Shown piece by piece: positions 7,681 to 34,487 of a DNA stretch of 37,623 bases. Below the pieces are notes generated by a model that was given only the letters and a program-made list of their open reading frames with translations, did not search any database and was not told where the DNA came from. Source of the DNA: Caldilineaceae bacterium (GTDB lineage Bacteria; Chloroflexota; Anaerolineae; Caldilineales; Caldilineaceae); NCBI GenBank assembly GCA_022842065.1, contig JALHQH010000058.1, positions 968 to 38,590 of the forward strand. Reading direction: 5' to 3'. The translations under genes and the position numbers were made by a program. The number at the start of each line of letters is the position of its first letter. Position 1 is the first letter of the stretch.

Positions 7681-9009
7681 TTAGATTTGGCCGCAGACTT
7701 CCTGCAACCGGCGCCGGAGATAGTGGCGCTCTACCTCGTTGTCAACCTGCGCCAGGGCCTGCCGGTAGGCGACTGCCGCCTCGGTCCAGCGCGCGGCCCG
7801 GCGCAGTAGATCGGCGCGCGCCGCTGGTAACCAGTGATAGTGCGCCAATGTACCGTCGGCTGCTAGCGCATCCAATAAGGCCAGCCCGTGCGCTAGATCG
7901 CCCGCCATCGCGACCGCCACTGCCTGGTTGAGGGCGACGACCGGCGACGGCTGGTAGGCGGCCAGCGCGTGATAGAGCCCTGCAATCTGCGGCCAATCCG
8001 TGTCAGCCGGTCGTGGCGCCTGGGCATGGAGGGCGCTGATCGCGGCCTGGATCTGATAGGGGCCAGGCGCACGCAGGGCCAGTGCTTGTTCAAGCACAAT
8101 GAGGGCCTCAGCAATGGCTTGATGATCCCACTGCGCGCGATCCTGCTCCTCTAGTGTGACCAACTGGCCGGCTGCGTCTAACCGCGCGGCGGTGCGCGCA
8201 TGGTGCAGCCGCATGAGGGCCAGCAGCCCCATTGCTTCCGCAACCAAGCCTGGTTGGATGAGTTCTAATGTGAAGCTCCCGGTTTGGGCTGCGCTTGGTG
8301 GGCCGAGCGCCGGCACCTGTTGTAATAGATGGACGAGCAACTGTGCCAAGCGGATCGCTTCCTGGCATAATTCTTGCCGGATGAGCGCATCGCCGGCAGA
8401 GGCGGCATAGCCTTCGTTAAAGATCAGATAGAGCGTGGCCAGCACGGCATCCAAGCGCGCCGCCAATAAGTGGCGCGGTGGCACCTGAAAGGGGATGCCG
8501 GCATCCCGGATCTTGCGTTTGGCGCGGACCAACCGCTGGGCCATGGTCGGCACCGGCGTCAGGAAGGCATGGGCAATCGCTTCTGTGCTTAGGCCGCCCA
8601 GGGTGCGCAAGGTCAGGGCCACCTGCGCGTCCAGCGCCAACGCCGGATGGCAGCAGGTAAAGATGAGCTTGAGCCGCTCGTCAGGGTATTCCTCCGGCTC
8701 AAGGACGGGCGCGCTGCTTGTGTCCACAGTTGCTTGTGCTGCTTGTAGCAGGGCAAGCTTGCGCGCCAGCGTCTGATTCCGCCGCAGCCGGTCAATCGCC
8801 CGATGGCGCGCCGTTGTGGTAATCCAGGCCGGTGGATTGGTGGGGATGCCCTCGCGTGGCCACCGTTCCAACGCCACGATAAAAGCTTCCTGCACCACCT
8901 CCTCGGCCAACTCCAGATCATGAAACGCGCCAATGAGCGTTGCCAGTACCCGACCCGAAGAGGAGCGAAAGGTCTGTTCTACTGTCGTGATGATGTGATC
9001 AGAAAGCAT
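7681..9009 (-). CDS. ECF42-type RNA polymerase sigma factor with C-terminal DUF6596/TPR-like extension
   Basis: This 442-residue protein is far longer than a basic ECF sigma factor (about 190 residues). Region 2 covers about residues 10-80 ([21 protein letters not shown]). [15 protein letters not shown] (111-125) leads into region 4 (125-170), where STEAIAHAF begins the DNA-binding helix-turn-helix. The DUF6596-type segment with LYLIFNEGY (193-201) and an alpha-helical TPR-like tail follow. This architecture, with a YCII/DGPF gene just upstream, defines the ECF42 group. Such sigma factors lack a classical anti-sigma factor and are thought to be controlled through the extension. The ATG has no strong ribosome site, and a 33-bp-arm hairpin fills most of the 96-bp gap before it, so expression relative to the partner may be limited. 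Target genes are unknown. Confidence 0.93.
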
Positions 9010-9023
9010 AGTAGTTAGACCCC

Positions 9024-9090
9024 AGACAGGGAGACACGAGACAGGGAGACACGAGAGTCTCGTATCTCCCTGTCTCGTGTCTCCCTGTCT
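9024..9090. repeat. Near-perfect palindrome between the YCII and sigma factor genes
   Basis: Arms of 33 bp (9024-9056 and 9058-9090) pair with one mismatch and almost no loop. Each arm is two copies of a GACAGGGAGACACGA-like unit. Transcribed, it would be a very stable hairpin separating the two cistrons. Confidence 0.92.
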
Positions 9091-9105
9091 CGTCCCCCCT
9101 TTTTG

Positions 9106-21204: not shown

Positions 21205-21243
21205 CATCAGGGCGGCGTACGGGGATCTTACAATTTAACGGCA

Positions 21244-21354
21244 GGGGTATAGACGCGGATTGAGGGGGCGCGGATGGTGGGGTATAGACGCGGATTGAGG
21301 AAACGCGGATGTGAACACCCGCATCCGCGTTTCCTCAATCCGCGTCTATACCCC
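21244..21354. repeat. Perfect 33-bp inverted repeat with a duplicated left arm
   Basis: The arm GGGGTATAGACGCGGATTGA and its continuation (21279-21311) is a perfect inverted complement of 21322-21354, with a 10-nt loop. A diverged extra copy of the left arm lies at 21244-21276. It separates the GH39 gene end from the BTAD regulator start. Confidence 0.93.
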
Positions 21355-21408
21355 TGTTCTATCAGCTACTCTACTATCGCTGCCACCGTGCCTGTCATCC
21401 CGCTGTGG

Positions 21409-23058: not shown

Positions 23059-23098
23059 GGTTGGTTCTTTCTGATTGGTGGGAGGCAGGGAGATACGT

Positions 23099-23191
23099 GA
23101 ATCGGTAAATCGGTAAATCGGTATACAAGGAATAGACGCAGGGTAAACAACTGTCCTATGCCCACGCTTCCTACTGATTTACCGATTTACC
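23099..23191. repeat. AATCGGTA array folded as an inverted repeat
   Basis: Three tandem AATCGGTA-like units (from 23099) face an inverted pair at 23176-23191; GGTAAATCGGTAAATC (23104-23119) pairs perfectly. It lies between the downstream Opp ATPase gene and the GH39 gene. The same unit recurs at 26980-27040. Confidence 0.9.
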
Positions 23192-23202
23192 CATCTATCC
23201 AT

Positions 23203-24246
23203 CTACCCCGTTAACGGTACACCGAGCAATTCGAGTTCATCGGCCCGGTGACAGGCGACAAAATGGTGGGGGGCCGTCTCTTGCCAGGTCGGCACTTCGG
23301 TTTTACAGCGCTCGACCGCGTAACGACAGCGGGGGTGGAAGTGGCAACCGCTGGGTGGATTGGCGGGATTGGCGACTTCACCGGGCAAAATAATCCGCTG
23401 CATGCGCAGATCAGGATCGGGGTTGGGGATGGCGGAGAGCAGCGCTTCGGTGTAGGGATGGCGGGGGCGGGTAAAGAGGTCGTTGACATTGCCCATTTCG
23501 ACCAGCTTGCCGACATACATCACCGCTACGCGGTTCGACACATGTTTGATCACATTGAGCCCGTGGGCAATAAAGAGAAACGAGAGATTCAGCTCACGGC
23601 GCAAGTCCTGCAACAGGTTGAGAATCTGGGCTTGGATCGAGACATCAAGCGCCGAGACCGGTTCATCGGCGACGATAAATTCTGGGTTGAGCGCCAAGGC
23701 ACGGGCGATCCCGATGCGTTGGCGCTGGCCACCGCTAAAGGCGTGGGGATAGCGGTTCATCTGTTTGACCTCTAGCCCGACCAGATCCAGCAACTCTTTC
23801 ACGCGAGCAATCAGCGCATCGCCACGGGCGATCTTGTGTAAAATCAACGGCTCACTGACGATCTGGAGCACGGTTTTGCGTGGATCAAGCGCTGAATAGG
23901 GATTTTGGAAGACTAGCTGCGCCCGCCGTCGAAACGCTTTGAGGCCCGGTTTGTCGAGGGCCAACACATCGACGGGTGCGTCCTGTTGCCCGTAAAAAGT
24001 AATCGCGCCCGCGGTCGGTTCGATGGCGCGCAGCAGGCAACGGCCCAAAGTCGTCTTGCCGCTGCCCGACTCACCGACCAGTCCCAAGGTCTCGTTGCGT
24101 TGAATTGTAAAGGAGACGCCATCGACGGCGCGGACCTGGCCGACGACTCTTTTGAGCAGCCCTTGTTCAATCGGAAAGTGCTTTTGCAGGTTCTCCACTT
24201 TGAGCAGCAGATCGCCTTGCCCTTGCTCTTGCTGGTGATTGTTCAT
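23203..24246 (-). CDS. Opp/Dpp-type ABC transporter ATP-binding protein (OppF-like)
   Basis: This 347-residue ATPase has Walker A GESGSGKT at 58-65, an FQNP Q-loop, the signature [15 protein letters not shown], a Walker B ending in ADEP, and the H-loop in FIAHGLNV. The C-terminal oligo/dipeptide-type domain carries the cysteine pattern C-x5-C-x6-C then a fourth C, which holds an iron-sulfur cluster in some Dpp ATPases. It would power uptake from the cytoplasmic face with the OppD-like partner. It overlaps that gene by 4 bp (ATGA), so the two are translationally coupled. Substrate (peptide or oligosaccharide) is not decided by the sequence. Confidence 0.95.
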
Positions 24247-25256
24247 GCGGCCACCACCTTTTCATCATGGGCCAGGAAGCAGCGCACGGTGTGGCCGGGC
24301 GCAATCTCGTCCAATGGGGGGACCTGTTGATCACAGCGCCCAACTTCGGCGATCAGGCAGCGCGAGGTAAAACCACATTGTTGCGGTGGATCAAGCGGCA
24401 CTGGCACGTTGCCGGCGATATTTTCCAAGTAGGTGTTGGATTGGCGGGTCAAGGTAGGGATCGCTTTGAGCAGCCGTTGCGTGTAAGGATGGTGTGGATC
24501 TTTGAAAACGGTGCGCGTCTCGGCATACTCGACAATGCGCCCCAAATACATGACCGCCACCATATCCGCCACCTCGGCGATGACGCCCAGATCGTGGGTG
24601 ATGTAGAGCACCGACATGCCCGATTCGGCCTGTAAGGCTTGGATCAACTCGATGATCTGCGCCTGTACGGTCACGTCAAGCGCGGTGGTCGGTTCATCGG
24701 CGATGAGCAGCGACGGGTTGCATGAGAGCGCCTGCGCGATCATACAGCGTTGACACATGCCTCCCGACAGTTGGTGGGGATAGTCACCAAAGCGCTGGGT
24801 TGGGTTGGGCAGCCCCACGCGGTCGAGCATATCGAGCACAATCTCTTTCGCCTCTTTCTTGTTGCGCGTGCGGTGCAGGTGGACCATCTCCATAATCTGC
24901 TGGCCGATGGTGTGGACCGGTGACAGGCTGGCCGTCGGATCCTGAAAGATCATCGCGATCTCCCGCCCCCGGATCGCACGGATGGTACTGCCAAACGGGT
25001 CGAGCGCCGCCAGATCGACAACCTCGCCGTTGGTGCGCTGGAATGCCATGCTCCCCTCCACGATCCGGCCCGGCGGCAAAATTGTGCGCATGATCGACGC
25101 CGCGGTCACACTCTTGCCACAGCCACTCTCGCCGATCATCCCCAACGTCTTGCCTTTCGGGATCACAAAATCCACCCCATCCACCGCCTTGAGCATGCCT
25201 TCGTCTAAGCTGAAATGGGTTCGTAGGTTGCGAACGGTTAATAACGCGTCGTCCAA
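24243..25256 (-). CDS. Opp/Dpp-type ABC transporter ATP-binding protein (OppD-like)
   Basis: This 337-residue ATPase has Walker A GESGCGKS at 42-49, an FQDP Q-loop, the signature [15 protein letters not shown], Walker [13 protein letters not shown] and the H-loop YITHDLGV. The signature has cysteine where arginine is usual (GGMRQR), a small oddity that should not abolish function. The C-terminal cysteines (C-x5-C-x7-C, then C) match the iron-sulfur pattern of this subfamily. The start is TTG (25256), supported by AAGGAG about 8 nt upstream and by a typical [11 protein letters not shown] start. It is the first ATPase after the four-helix-bundle gene, whose 3' palindromic arm lies directly before its ribosome site. 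Confidence 0.94.
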
Positions 25257-25271
25257 AGTAGATGCTCCTTA

Positions 25272-25306
25272 AAACGTGAGGCGTGAAACGTGAAACGTGA
25301 AACGTG
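25272..25306. repeat. AAACGTG array: left arm of the palindrome around the four-helix-bundle gene
   Basis: A 35-nt array of 7-bp units (AAACGTG with variant GAGGCGT) that matches the inverted complement of 25811-25845 at 31 of 35 positions. It lies between the stop of the four-helix-bundle gene and the ribosome site of the OppD-like gene. Confidence 0.93.
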
Positions 25307-25309
25307 GTG

Positions 25310-25780
25310 CTACGATAGATCCTCTTCGGGGAGGGTGTAGGTGATGGCCTCTTCACGCAGAATTTGTTGGCGCTGTTGGGGAACCATAATCAGTAAGAGG
25401 CGGATGCTCTCGCTGAGGAGGACGAGACGGTGGTTAAACACTTCTTCGCCGAGGATATGCCGCGCTTTAAAATACCAATCGCGGCTTTCACGGGCGGAGC
25501 CTAGCGAATACTCATAAAATCTTGCACGATCTTTGCCGGTTCCTCTGGAATAGCCTTCGGCAAGATTCGCACTGATTGAGCCTGTGGCACGATAGAGTTG
25601 ATCACTCAACGACCACAACCAATGGTGCTGATTAAGCTTTTGTATATCAAACCAAGCGAGATCGCCGAGAAACAACGCCTTCCGGTAAGCTTGCATTTTC
25701 CAAAGCGAATCATCTTTGATTAACTTCGGTACACCAGCTTCCCACTCCTCATCGCTCCCAATTTTCACAACTTCAGCCAT
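25310..25780 (-). CDS. Four-helix-bundle protein (S23/IVS type) in the loop of a palindromic array
   Basis: This 156-residue protein belongs to the four-helix-bundle family (TIGR02436-type), first known from ORFs in 23S rRNA intervening sequences and related to Avd of diversity-generating retroelements. The family core is ATGSISANLAEGYSRGTGK near residues 65-83, followed by RFYEYSLGSARES. A charged N-terminal tail of about 25 residues precedes it. I start at 25780, because GGGGGGTGAT lies directly before that ATG; an earlier in-frame ATG at 25813 would run into the repeat array. It has no evident role in transport, yet sits between OppC-like and OppD-like genes, flanked by inverted AAACGTG arrays. 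RNA or nucleic-acid binding is possible from relatives, but function here is unknown. Confidence 0.9.
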   Translation of the reverse strand: MAEVVKIGSDEEWEAGVPKLIKDDSLWKMQAYRKALFLGDLAWFDIQKLNQHHWLWSLSDQLYRATGSISANLAEGYSRGTGKDRARFYEYSLGSARESRDWYFKARHILGEEVFNHRLVLLSESIRLLLIMVPQQRQQILREEAITYTLPEEDLS

Positions 25781-25810
25781 ATCACCCCCCACTTTATCCA
25801 TTTCACGATT

Positions 25811-25845
25811 CACGATTCACGATTCACGTTTTACGCATCACGTTT
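25811..25845. repeat. AAACGTG array: right arm of the palindrome around the four-helix-bundle gene
   Basis: This 35-nt segment is the inverted partner of 25272-25306 (31 of 35 positions). The array continues on both sides to about 25803-25856 and overlaps the OppC-like stop codon. It contains the CGCATCACG variant, also found in the array at 28117-28158. Confidence 0.93.
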
Positions 25846-25851
25846 CACGTT

Positions 25852-26964
25852 TCACTTATACGGATCCGCCGCGTCGCGCAGCCCGTCGCCCATAAAGTTG
25901 AAGGCGAGGACGATGATGAAGATGACGAGCCCGGGCAACATGAGCCAGGGATAGAGGGAGATGGTTTTGACACTTTGTGCCTGTTGCAGCAGGACGCCCA
26001 GGCTGATCGCAGGAGGACGCAGCCCTAGCCCCAAAAAGCTCAACGCGGTTTCGGCCAGGATCATGCCAGGGATCGAGAGAGTGAGTGAGACGATCAGATA
26101 GCTGATAAAACCGGGCAACATGTGGTCAAAGATGATCCACGCATCGGACGCGCCGGCTAATTTGGAGGCGGTAATAAAGTTCTCCTCGCGCAATTCCAAC
26201 ATCTTGCCACGCACGACGCGCGCCAACCCACACCAGCCGATCAGCGAGAGGATGATCGAAATCGCAAAGTAGACCTGCGTGGGCGGCCAATCCTTGGGCA
26301 CCGCGGCCGAGAGCGCCATCCACAGCGGAATTGAGGGAATACAGAGGATAAACTCAATCACCCGCTGAATGATAAAATCGACCACGCCGCCATAATAACC
26401 AGAGATCGCACCGAGCACACTACCCAGGATAAAGGTGAAGATTACCCCAACCAGCCCAATCGAAACTGAGATCCGCGTGCCATAGATCATCCGCGAAAGC
26501 ATATCACGCCCGGAATCATCGGTCCCCAGGGGATAAAAAGCCCCTTCTCGTGTGCCGAAGAGATGAATGTCGGTCGCAAACAGCCCCCACAGTTTGTAAG
26601 GCTCGCCTTGGACAAAGAAATGGACCGGCAACTCGACCGTGGGATCAGGTGTATAGATCTTGCGCCAGGTGCGCGGATCTTCCTCGACCTTTAGTCCGTA
26701 AACATAAGGGCCAAAGCCCTGCGTCCCAAAGAAATGAATCCCCTGCGGTGGCACATGGATAAAGTCGGTGGAACGGGTCAACGGATCCTGGGGTGCAATG
26801 AACTCGGCAAAGATCGCGATCAGATAGAAACCGATCACAATCCACGTTCCCACCATCGCCAGCTTGTGGCGGCGAAACTTGCGCCACATCAACGTCCATT
26901 GCGTGGCGATAAAAAGATCATCGTCATGCGCTTGCGGCACTTTGTCAGCAGTGATCGCGGTCAT
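25852..26964 (-). CDS. Opp/Dpp-type ABC transporter permease (OppC-like)
   Basis: This 370-residue permease has an N-terminal cytoplasmic stretch with WRKFRRHKLAMVG (27-39), a first membrane helix (38-56), a periplasmic loop of about 100 residues, and LGTDDSGRDMLSRMIYGTRIS (147-167, split here by the loop end), the hallmark of OppC proteins. Five more helices follow. The EAA loop ENFITASKLAGASDAWI contacts the ATPase. The periplasmic insert makes it longer than typical OppC (about 300). AGGA lies just before the ATG. Its stop codon is embedded in the AAACGTG array that leads to the four-helix-bundle gene. It should pair with the OppB-like permease to form the membrane channel. Confidence 0.95.
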   Translation of the reverse strand: MTAITADKVPQAHDDDLFIATQWTLMWRKFRRHKLAMVGTWIVIGFYLIAIFAEFIAPQDPLTRSTDFIHVPPQGIHFFGTQGFGPYVYGLKVEEDPRTWRKIYTPDPTVELPVHFFVQGEPYKLWGLFATDIHLFGTREGAFYPLGTDDSGRDMLSRMIYGTRISVSIGLVGVIFTFILGSVLGAISGYYGGVVDFIIQRVIEFILCIPSIPLWMALSAAVPKDWPPTQVYFAISIILSLIGWCGLARVVRGKMLELREENFITASKLAGASDAWIIFDHMLPGFISYLIVSLTLSIPGMILAETALSFLGLGLRPPAISLGVLLQQAQSVKTISLYPWLMLPGLVIFIIVLAFNFMGDGLRDAADPYK

Positions 26965-26979
26965 AGGTTCCTTTCTCGT

Positions 26980-27040
26980 GTATCGGTAAATCGGTAAATC
27001 GGTAGAACAGTAAATCGGTACATCGGTTTACTGATTTACC
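26980..27040. repeat. AATCGGTA array folded as a partial inverted repeat
   Basis: Tandem AATCGGTA-like units (about 26982-27004) and further copies face GATTTACC (27033-27040); CAGTAAA and TTTACTG also pair. It occupies the oppB-oppC junction and uses the same unit as 23099-23191. Confidence 0.88.
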
Positions 27041-27049
27041 TTCCCCTTC

Positions 27050-28036: not shown

Positions 28037-28053
28037 GCAGGCTCCTTACTTGG

Positions 28054-28158
28054 TGAAACGTAAAACGTGAAACGTAAAACGTAAAACGTAAAACGTAATC
28101 GCATTGCCTGACAAGTTCGTTTCACGCATCACGTTTTACGTTTTACGTTTCACGTTTT
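28054..28158. repeat. AAACGTR palindromic array between the binding-protein and OppB-like genes
   Basis: Left arm 28054-28096 and right arm 28117-28158 consist of 7-bp AAACGTG/AAACGTA units in opposite orientation; a 36-nt stretch pairs with 5 mismatches. The core between them is about 20 nt. The right arm begins right at the stop codon of the solute-binding protein and holds CGCATCACG, shared with 25811-25845. This looks like the empty form of the palindrome that encloses the four-helix-bundle gene. Confidence 0.93.
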
Positions 28159-30112
28159 ATTTAACGTACCACTGGTCACCGCGATAGGGGACCCAGAACA
28201 TGTAGTCGCCGGAGAACATGCCTTCGGTGGGGGTGTTGCCCAGGCGATTGGAGATGATGATCACGCGTGGCGCAACCGAGACGCCCAGGGAGTAGAGTTG
28301 CTCGGTGTAGAGTTTAGTCATTTCGAGACCGGCGCTCATATAGGCTTCGGAGCCGGGTTCGGCGCTGGCATATTGGTCACAGAGGGCGATTAGTTGTTGG
28401 TTGATTTCAGAGGGTTCTTCGCCTTCGGTACCACCACTGTTGTACCAGGCCCGCCAGAGTGGTGCATAACTGTCGGCACCCAAGGGGCGGATGCGGCTAC
28501 ACTTGGCTGCGCGCAGGTTCGGTTCGGCAATTGCGTCGTAGGGATGGGCATAGGCATCGGCTTCGTTGGCTTGATTGCGTTCCAGCCACAGGGTACGCTC
28601 GATCTGGCTCATCGTCGTCTTCACCCCGACCACGCTCCACATTTCAGCGATCAGCTCGGAGTGCGGGCAGAACTCTTCCCAACATTCGAGCACAACTTCG
28701 AGCGGTGCACCATCGGAACGGGTACGGACTTCATTGGCGGCATCCCATACTAGGCCCATCTCGTCGAGTAGGGCATTGGCCTTGTCAAGGTCAAGGTCGA
28801 TATAGTACTCACCCATCCAATCTTCATAGAAGGAGACCGATTCGGGAATTGTTGCTTGGCGCACTTTTGCCCGGCCAAAGTAGAGAATCTCATTGATCTG
28901 GTTGCGGTCAATTGCCAGTGACATTGCCTGACGGAAGCGCACATCCTGGAAGATTTCTCTGAGCACTGGGTCATTGTGCGTCTGATTAAAGCTGACCCCG
29001 ACATCGTTGCCACGGCTGTTGTCAAAGAGATAAACTTTATAATCGCCGGCTTCTTCGTTCTCGACGTAGAGTGGGTAGTCCTTGACTGGCAGTGGATTTT
29101 CACCGGCATTATCCAGTTCCCGCGAGATAAATTTCAATGTGCGCACTTCAGCATCCTGCACCAGCACCGCAACCTGGCTATCAATGTAGGGCAGTTGATT
29201 GCCCGCCGTATCGACGGCCCAGTAATAGGCATTGCGCGTAAAGTTCTTGTTGCCCAGCTCATCAATCGAAGTCAACACCCACGGGGTAATATCCGGCAAG
29301 GCGGTATCCTGTTGCCCCTGTGTATGGTCATCGTGGTATTGGAAGGCTAACACCCAGGTTTCAAAGTTTTCCGTCTTGGCCAGGGCATCGGCATCCGAAT
29401 TGTATTTACTGTGCCACTGTTGCAGATAATGTTTGGGTGCATACATGCGGTCGTTCCAGTGACTCTTTGACATGGTCAGGTCAAAGTTCGGATTCGGCTC
29501 GGCAAAATCGACCTGTACGGTGATGTCATCAACCTTGGTCATGGTCATCGGCTGGCTGCCGGAGAGATAGACGGCGGGGATGGCCGGCGTCAGATCTGTG
29601 TTGAGCAGAATATCCTCATACCAGAAGAGAAAATCGTCAGCGGTAAAGGGTGCGCCATCCGACCATTTCATGCCGGAGCGTAAGGTCATCGTCCAGCTTT
29701 TTTTGTCATCCGATGCACTGTAGCCGGCCAGGATATTCGGGGAGAGGTTCTGCAAATCAGGTTCAATAAAGAGCAGACTCTGCATGCGCAACGCTTCGGT
29801 ATCAAGCTGGCCGGTGCGGGGACCAAAGGCCGCACCCCGTTGCTCACCACCGTAGACCCCGACTTCGTTGCGGGGGGTCACCACGAGCGGATCAGCCGGC
29901 AGCCGCTCTTCCACCGGGGGGAGTGTGCCGGCGTTGACCAACTCAGCCAACATGGGCGCTTCGTGATAAGCGCCATCGCCGGCGGCTTCTGCTGGGGCTG
30001 CGGCCTCAGCCACTGCTTCTGCTGGGGCTTCTGCTGCTGGGGCCGATGAACAACTGACAAGCACAAGGCACAACAAACTGAGCACCATCGTATAAAACGC
30101 GCTTTTCCTCAC
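28157..30112 (-). CDS. Family-5 extracellular solute-binding lipoprotein (OppA-like)
   Basis: This 651-residue protein begins with a lipoprotein signal peptide: a basic start, a hydrophobic core, and the lipobox LVSC with the modified cysteine at residue 21. An Ala/Glu/Pro-rich linker (23-45) follows. The mature domain has SBP_bac_5 features: SWTMTLRSGMKWSDGAPFTADD is the well-known start region (split across residues 134-155), and FRQAMSLAIDRNQINE is near 405. It binds a peptide or an oligosaccharide outside the membrane and delivers it to the OppBC-like permease. Start is GTG at 30112 with a perfect GGAGG 5 nt upstream. The GH39 gene at the other end of the operon favours an oligosaccharide, by inference. 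Confidence 0.95.
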   Translation of the reverse strand: MRKSAFYTMVLSLLCLVLVSCSSAPAAEAPAEAVAEAAAPAEAAGDGAYHEAPMLAELVNAGTLPPVEERLPADPLVVTPRNEVGVYGGEQRGAAFGPRTGQLDTEALRMQSLLFIEPDLQNLSPNILAGYSASDDKKSWTMTLRSGMKWSDGAPFTADDFLFWYEDILLNTDLTPAIPAVYLSGSQPMTMTKVDDITVQVDFAEPNPNFDLTMSKSHWNDRMYAPKHYLQQWHSKYNSDADALAKTENFETWVLAFQYHDDHTQGQQDTALPDITPWVLTSIDELGNKNFTRNAYYWAVDTAGNQLPYIDSQVAVLVQDAEVRTLKFISRELDNAGENPLPVKDYPLYVENEEAGDYKVYLFDNSRGNDVGVSFNQTHNDPVLREIFQDVRFRQAMSLAIDRNQINEILYFGRAKVRQATIPESVSFYEDWMGEYYIDLDLDKANALLDEMGLVWDAANEVRTRSDGAPLEVVLECWEEFCPHSELIAEMWSVVGVKTTMSQIERTLWLERNQANEADAYAHPYDAIAEPNLRAAKCSRIRPLGADSYAPLWRAWYNSGGTEGEEPSEINQQLIALCDQYASAEPGSEAYMSAGLEMTKLYTEQLYSLGVSVAPRVIIISNRLGNTPTEGMFSGDYMFWVPYRGDQWYVK

Positions 30113-34088: not shown

Positions 34089-34274
34089 TACACGACGACT
34101 GACCAGCGTCCACTGACGACTGTTAACTATGAGCAGTTGTCAGTGGTGGCAACCCCACCGTGTTGACGATGGATTAGCCACGGCGTGGCGGCAGAAGGTA
34201 GGCCAGCCTTTATGTGGATTAAATAATTCGGTTTACGACGACCGCCCGGCGATGAATCACCGGGCTAGTCAACG

Positions 34275-34326
34275 GCGCCCGCTAAAGCGGGCTGATGCTA
34301 CCGGGCAAGCCCGCTTTAGCGGGCGC
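34275..34326. repeat. Perfect 19-bp inverted repeat
   Basis: GCGCCCGCTAAAGCGGGCT (34275-34293) pairs with 34308-34326. Each arm folds on its own (CCCGC-TAAA-GCGGG), as in REP-type elements. Confidence 0.93.
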
Positions 34327-34409
34327 TGTTCCTTAGCCCTGTGGCTTTAGCCCAGGGCGATCTCGGTACACCAAAACATTTTTTATCTCCATTAAGTCTG
34401 GCAATCCTG

Positions 34410-34431
34410 GCCGAGGGTTTTAACCCTCGGC
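34410..34431. repeat. 10-bp-stem hairpin
   Basis: GCCGAGGGTT and AACCCTCGGC are joined by a TT loop. It lies about 57 nt upstream of the serine hydrolase start. Confidence 0.9.
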
Positions 34432-34487
34432 TACCATCTGCCGTCACTCCGTGACTTAGGGTTCAATTTTACGCCAAAGGCGCTGCG

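Follow-up and report, generated by a model that had tools for sequence, protein, structure and literature searches.

The question addressed here is what kind of genetic unit lies between two transporter genes on contig JALHQH010000058.1 of a Caldilineaceae bacterium (Chloroflexota), where, within the analysed stretch of 37,623 nucleotides (hereafter the window), a gene for a four-helix-bundle (4HB) protein is placed in the gap that separates an OppC-like from an OppD-like gene and is enclosed by two inverted arrays of a 7-nt repeat. The interpretation that we favour, with moderate confidence, is a hairpin-armed single-gene cassette, i.e. an open reading frame (ORF) with an inverted short-repeat array at each end, located in sense between the stop codon and the ribosome binding site of adjacent operon genes. 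Such cassettes look like an apparently overlooked class of tiny genetic element that is built like the intervening sequences (IVS) of 23S rRNA but resides in protein operons.

The armed gene between oppC and oppD

The 4HB ORF of 156 aa (25310..25780, minus strand; an in-frame GTG is present upstream at 25813) is encoded on the same strand as its host genes, which were assigned by Pfam scan as those of an OppC-like permease upstream (25852..26964, minus strand) and an OppD-like ATPase downstream (24243..25256, minus strand). Its product belongs to PF05635 (E 4.7e-14; 52.9 bits at a curated cut-off of 33.8) and to TIGR02436 (E 1.2e-15; 57.6 bits, cut-off 24); 5602 homologues were retrieved at E<=1e-3, and the organism names shown among the best 120 were those of Anaerolineae/Chloroflexota. 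The five closest homologues (P0001-P0005) are 75-95% identical. Of 35 positions, 31 are complementary between the two arms (25272-25306 and 25811-25845), and with a lag-7 identity of 86% and 85%, respectively, both are period-7 arrays, built in inverted orientation from the unit AAACGTG and variants of it. Their arm score of 27 compares with a maximum of 16 in 1000 dinucleotide shuffles of the flanks, none of which reached the observed match; the inverted arms reported around this gene in an earlier note on the sequence are real. In its full extent the upstream array (5' in sense, 25802..25855) has its start at the stop codon of oppC, and the downstream array (3' in sense, 25272..25306) ends right before the AAGGAG that precedes oppD; the cassette thus occupies the whole intercistronic gap. 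A consensus scan of positions 25200-25950 revealed neither a sigma-70-type promoter nor a terminator, and the cassette would be expressed from the transcript of its host operon.

At the oppC-oppD junction itself the comparison was confined to distant operons (best full-length OppC among 400 genomes, 60% identity): None of the 30 loci homologous to the opp operon contained a 4HB gene, and the cassette was present in 0 of the 23 in which oppC adjoins oppD. One homologous oppC-oppD gap (L110) harbours a one-sided, gene-less heptamer array of the ACGTGGA type.

Arms, repeat period and gene family

For a comparison across the family, reference genomes were scanned with a 30-sequence alignment and the best 80 of 204 relatives were kept, which gave 79 loci; together with the window, both 150-nt flanks were present in 76 of 80. 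An arm score of at least 15 was reached by 61 of these 76 4HB loci, versus 11 of 296 control ORFs taken from the same contigs and 2 of 101 when the controls were restricted to gaps of 60 nt or more; at a score of at least 20 the proportions were 40/76 versus approximately 5/296 (2%). When flanks were swapped between the 4HB loci of this set, 39% and 15% still attained the lower and the higher score, respectively. Period-7 arrays flank 37 of the 76 loci in comparison to 20 of the 296 controls, and each other period from 5 to 12 flanks at most two of the 76; in those loci for which a best arm period was assigned, it was 7 in 62/62 (79-locus set) and 25/32 (family-wide samples, see below). Other 4HB genes within inverted arrays, for which the earlier note had proposed to look, were found in large number. 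The same note held that its element reading would fail if the arrays were just as common around unrelated genes, and this holds only in part: Arrays do occur there, but it is much more often a 4HB gene that has arms enclosing it. Of the 11 controls that reached an arm score of at least 15, two proved to be 4HB genes themselves and two encode GxxExxY proteins; L037, L041, L054 and L055 show, by eye, whole hairpins on both sides.

In 30 of these genomes, the best PF05635 matches showed arm scores of at least 15 at 17 of the 29 loci scored; judged by coordinates, three of the 29 (L107, L108, L109) repeat loci of the 79-locus set (L061, L078, L075). Family-wide samples were drawn from the phyla of Salinivenus lutea (G019), which is placed in Bacteroidota by GTDB and in Rhodothermota by NCBI, and of an Anaerolineales metagenome-assembled genome (G002); they are termed Bacteroidota and Chloroflexota draw. 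PF05635 was carried by 45 of 61 and 20 of 61 genomes, respectively, and arm scores of at least 15 were obtained at 18/28 Bacteroidota and 14/28 Chloroflexota loci (one previously included locus was omitted from each set, and one locus per set lacked a flank). Swapped flanks attained this score in only 3% and 2% of cases. Since swapped arms almost never match in these samples, the ends of the cassettes are defined by mutual matching and share no common sequence; compared across loci, an arm fits its partner at the same locus better than arms from elsewhere.

The two GxxExxY genes among the armed controls (L041:8271-9059 and L059:2014-2370) led to a second family (PF13366/TIGR04256; PD-(D/E)XK superfamily). 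Among the GxxExxY loci collected from both draws (L406-L465; L433, half of a broken gene, was left unscored and two loci lacked a flank), arm scores of at least 15 were found in 40 of 57, i.e. 21/27 in Chloroflexota and 19/30 in Bacteroidota, against 7% and 5% with swapped flanks. Their best arm period was 9 in 19 of 40, 10 in 8 of 40 and 7 in none of the 40. The repeat period thus depends on the gene family, with 7 nt in 4HB cassettes and mostly about 9 nt in those of GxxExxY genes. Genes of both families are present in several copies per genome, and they tend to be found together: PF05635 was detected in 12 of 15 PF13366 carriers versus 8 of 46 other genomes of the Chloroflexota draw, and in 26/28 versus 19/33 of the Bacteroidota draw, where genomes were counted by eye with no control for genome size or kinship.

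The orientation of the neighbouring genes is biased. Among the 67 loci for which both neighbours could be called (12 loci at contig edges were omitted), both are co-directional with the 4HB gene in 53 and both opposed in 2, versus 122 and 39 of 231 control genes; the corresponding numbers were 19 versus 4 (Bacteroidota) and 19 versus 2 (Chloroflexota) in the family-wide samples, and 48 versus 0 of 54 for GxxExxY genes. The 147 neighbour proteins fell into 98 clusters, the largest with 10, 9 and 7 members, and murB-ddl emerged as a recurrent site. The cassette lies in sense within operons, mostly next to unrelated proteins. For Flavobacterium columnare, a four helix bundle gene is tabulated between the guanylate kinase and a nicotinate nucleotide adenylyltransferase gene, in passages that make no mention of arms (PMC5524665).

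Taking both families together, we tentatively propose a wider class, which we regard as possible rather than probable: transposase-free single-gene mobile elements with hairpin ends of short tandem repeats, in which the period would be set by the protein (7 nt for S23/Avd-like 4HB, about 9 nt for GxxExxY PD-(D/E)XK proteins), each protein would act on its own repeats, keep the arms matched and enable the spread into intercistronic gaps, the 23S rRNA IVS would represent an rRNA-resident branch, and many gene-less hairpins would be non-autonomous remnants. The residence of 4HB and GxxExxY genes in operon cassettes that are gained or lost, with hairpin ends of family-linked period, would provide a common and testable biology for both families.

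Alleles with and without the cassette

A comparison of alleles is offered by three genomes of the Bacteroidota draw that are sisters and carry several cassettes in one operon (arm scores of at least 15 at 14 of the 27 4HB genes in the fetched loci). In two of them (L387, L388) a cassette separates an aldehyde dehydrogenase/MaoC gene from an enoyl-CoA hydratase gene, and in the third (L386) the same junction is a gap of 46 nt without arms, at a flank identity of approximately 90% on the upstream and 83-85% on the downstream side. Another junction of L388 holds a 4HB gene that differs from that of the L386/L387 cassette (about 50% amino acid identity) between the same host genes. Hence, ORF and arms come or are missing together at junctions that are conserved in other respects, and one junction can hold unrelated cassettes. 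The earlier note had proposed to compare the oppC-oppD junction of related genomes with and without the cassette; both kinds of allele were in this way found at other junctions, and at oppC-oppD the distant homologues compared show only the allele without.

A survey of the murB-ddl junction, whose genes were confirmed by Pfam, was made within one taxonomic order, where Ddl was matched in 136 of 151 genomes. It comprised 90 loci (30 returned by the search plus 60 fetched from the remaining 106 genomes), 87 of which contained both genes. The cassette was present at 3 of the 87 junctions and absent at 84, including those of relatives with 77-84% identical Ddl. The cassette-free gap measured less than 75 nt in 81 of the 84. 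The longest one (L257, 379 nt) contains repeat-like sequence with a self-hairpin score of 26 and no 4HB match, and in another of 166 nt (L183) a direct heptamer array of the (CAACTCG)n type is found without inverted arm or gene, at a site where relatives have a 4HB cassette. In L180, the C-terminus of murB extends into the array. Independent insertions at murB-ddl were considered and not borne out, as the 4HB proteins of this site cluster: The eight murB-ddl 4HBs need 3 changes on the tree versus a shuffled mean of 7.8 (the tree is quick and poorly resolved, with 42 of 78 inner branches open). The site may in consequence reflect one old gain followed by many losses.

Paralogous copies were compared in two Acidobacteria genomes. 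The copies of set B share the ORF and arms of the GGCAGTA type and little beyond. Those of set A also share homology outside the cassette, so that tandem duplication together with the neighbours explains some of the copies, and set A was rejected as clean evidence of transposition, for which set B is the cleaner case. One 4HB copy (L269) contains additional sequence with many runs of C and G that breaks the alignment and resembles an inserted small repeat.

The cassette ORFs are under strong purifying selection, with dN/dS values of 0 to 0.15 in all pairs for which they were computable (18 of 22). This, and the sense orientation inside operons, would also be expected of an ordinary operon gene whose flanking hairpins serve as attenuators, mRNA stabilisers or terminators and whose patchy distribution results from vertical loss. 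A role as terminator would fit genome G008, where three of five inspected gene-less loci (L288, L289, L291) have GTGAAAC hairpins between convergent genes, as bidirectional terminators would be. The hosts, however, are as diverse as the neighbour clusters indicate, non-orthologous cassettes occupy the same junction, copies lie at unrelated sites, and the antitoxin genes (PF02604) of the same phylum sample are never armed (arm scores of at least 15 in 0/29). An ordinary gene is therefore already disfavoured, and we consider it very improbable.

A different order of events, in which repeat hairpins arise alone in gaps and a 4HB gene lands in their loops or survives best there, is suggested by the frequency of such hairpins without a gene. 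Of the other short intergenic gaps in the window, 8 of 14 gave self-hairpin scores above all 200 shuffles, the exact three-unit repeat pattern is dispersed in 7 of 14 other genomes, and one-sided heptamer arrays are present in the gaps of L110 (oppC-oppD) and L183 (murB-ddl, cassette-free). Most empty alleles, however, are too short for a hairpin, as demonstrated by the L386 gap and by nearly all murB-ddl gaps; the arm period follows the gene family, and the set B paralogues share their arms. We regard this order as rather improbable. The preferred reading of a cassette that moves or is lost as a unit would imply that relatives without it differ through gains as well as losses.

Several of the observations nevertheless weigh against the cassette reading. 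No insertion has been polarised, and all pairs with and without the unit could be losses; the clustering at murB-ddl would agree with this, and the flanking homology of set A with tandem duplication. In the alignment of L386, L387 and L388 no target-site duplication or recombinase stands out, although no systematic search was made. A considerable fraction of 4HB genes scores below 15, namely 15/76 in the first set, 24/56 in the family-wide samples and 13/27 in the sister genomes. The 9-nt signal of the GxxExxY arms is weak (+0.09 over shuffles versus +0.27 to +0.37 for the 7-nt signal). Hairpins are common in the window's gaps generally, and in some genomes gene-less arrays far exceed 4HB genes in number, as in G008 with 34 pattern matches versus 5 PF05635 matches. 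Finally, in 8 of 9 ortholog sets from close sisters the own arms matched no better than swapped ones, with scores about equal or mixed. In the L386/L387 set the own arms scored 21 and 22 and the swapped ones 16 and 14; only this pair counts there, because the second operon of L388 (op2) carries another 4HB gene. Arm covariation among very close relatives is thus weak, and the support for mutual matching comes from the comparison across loci.

Intervening sequences, related systems and gene-less hairpins

The earlier note had taken the window cassette for an IVS-like element. In the IVS of the 23S rRNA of Leptospira, Coxiella and others, a PF05635 ORF likewise lies in a loop that is closed by inverted complementary ends, and the window cassette has both features, an S23p/PF05635 ORF and inverted complementary ends that close a stem around it. 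According to the Coxiella study, the IVS there is closed by a terminal stem of 28 bp and has tandem heptamers ahead of the S23p ORF, this ORF is decaying and probably untranslated, and functionality and origin of 23S rRNA IVS remain unclear (PMC4990558). Cassettes differ from these in their host, which is a protein operon and not a 23S rRNA helix, in their arms, which are locus-specific repeat arrays, in the occurrence of a second gene family with the same layout, and in the strong purifying selection on the ORF, as opposed to the reported decay of the Coxiella S23p (PMC4990558). Operon look-alikes with conserved ORFs suggest where the intervening sequences of 23S rRNA may come from.

An mRNA counterpart of these intervening sequences would imply that the arms pair in the transcript, that cleavage of the stem by RNase III releases the ORF from the opp mRNA, and that damage to the operon is limited in this way. 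In favour of this, layout and protein family are as in the Coxiella IVS (PMC4990558), the orientation in operons is in sense, and the window cassette, folded as RNA (-203.8 kcal/mol), has its arms paired with a z of -4.3 relative to 20 shuffles. Selection for RNA pairing of the arms is, however, not favoured by the mismatches: It predicts an excess of G-U pairs among the mismatches, and the opposite was seen on the sense strand of the 4HB arms (179 GU versus 230 AC), of the GxxExxY arms (54 versus 77) and of both families pooled (233 versus 307), with repeat units that are non-independent and p-values that are accordingly optimistic. Nor do the cassettes reside in rRNA: The Rfam scan of the window found no rRNA family at gathering score, and seven 23S rRNA motifs were found in 0 of 405 loci, in a check that had no positive control. 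The lack of a G-U excess lowers the IVS-processing reading, so that an RNA-processing counterpart appears unlikely, and self-processing of the cassette, as far as can be judged from sequence, is not supported. From the earlier proposal, what stands is the layout, the presence or absence in relatives and the arms as mark of a gene family; self-processing or excision by RNase III finds no support.

Under the favoured cassette reading, the arms may rather be kept matching at the level of DNA, by copying between the arms through hairpin template switching, than because pairing of the RNA is selected for. The oligomer of S23/Avd fold that the gene encodes, or the nuclease-like protein of the sister family, might act on its own arms and thereby aid their upkeep or spread. 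The Avd protein of diversity-generating retroelements is related in its fold, and its homology to PF05635 is stated in PMC10053308. One cassette 4HB protein matches Pfam bAvd weakly (8.7e-06, below the cut-off), and a solved relative is 2GSC (profile E 1.2e-4). Based on the fold relation to Avd and on this relative, binding of nucleic acid by the 4HB protein is a reasonable guess by analogy. No reverse transcriptase was present among the six window proteins scanned with Pfam (the opp-type proteins and the 4HB protein); the scan did not extend to other ORFs or to template and variable repeats (TR/VR).

The dispersal of intergenic hairpins, some with a gene and many gene-less, resembles the REP/REPIN-RAYT systems. 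In contrast to REP/RAYT, the cassette gene encodes a 4HB or PD-(D/E)XK protein and no Y1 transposase, and the ends are variable tandem repeats; the window cassette ORF is a PF05635 member and not a Y1 (TnpA-REP) transposase, and the remainder of the genome was not searched for a RAYT gene. Integron cassettes are single-gene units, for the most part without a promoter, that carry a palindromic site for recombination. The cassettes described here resemble them as single-gene units, and that of the window shows no promoter-like site in the consensus scan; they differ in having locus-specific arms on both sides and in copies that are scattered in operons and not collected in one array. Heptamer arrays of TAACTGA, an intergenic 7-nt tandem repeat, are reported from Beggiatoaceae, Cyanobacteria and Bacteroidetes (PMC4679880); as described there, they are direct repeats, mostly before start codons, and thus unlike the inverted cassette arms, and the term 'helix bundle' is absent from the main text of that paper. 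Among the matches listed in a literature search, in which subscription journals are thinly covered, no hairpin-armed 4HB or GxxExxY operon cassettes are described, nor is any function ascribed to genes of these families inside operons.

The arms of the AAACGTG type were at first view exclusive to the 4HB gene; this was rejected, as gene-less arrays are present in the window and in other genomes. A gene-less hairpin of the cassette heptamer (GTGAAAC/GTAAAAC; 28053..28159) fills the space that separates the OppB-like gene from that for a solute-binding protein (-51.4 kcal/mol, z -7.4). A related kind of repeat, the octamer AATCGGTA, forms an inverted array between oppC and oppB (26977..27041; self-hairpin score 20 versus a shuffle maximum of 16, fold z -0.2) and a hairpin in the gap 23059-23202 (23100..23191; fold z -3.9), both gene-less, and a long perfect hairpin of AGACAGGGAGACACG repeats (9024..9093) is located upstream of the gene 7681-9009 (-71.4 kcal/mol, z -10.5). 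Gene-less hairpins of the cassette repeat may in part be remnants, and many of the usually overlooked intergenic repeat hairpins may have this origin; the support for it is weak, with a single decayed copy observed, the third copy in L388, which has an internal deletion of 156 nt and retains its flanks including the upstream arm.

Three further features of the window are recorded here. The sole Rfam match is an Acido-Lenti-1 RNA (RF01687; 34411-34456, 45.5 bits), placed in the gap 34089-34487, which has a self-hairpin score of 72. A tandem repeat of 169 nt (2.3 copies, 92%) extends over positions 1-381, and one of 35 nt over positions 21243-21311, within the gap 21208-21408 with a self-hairpin score of 60.

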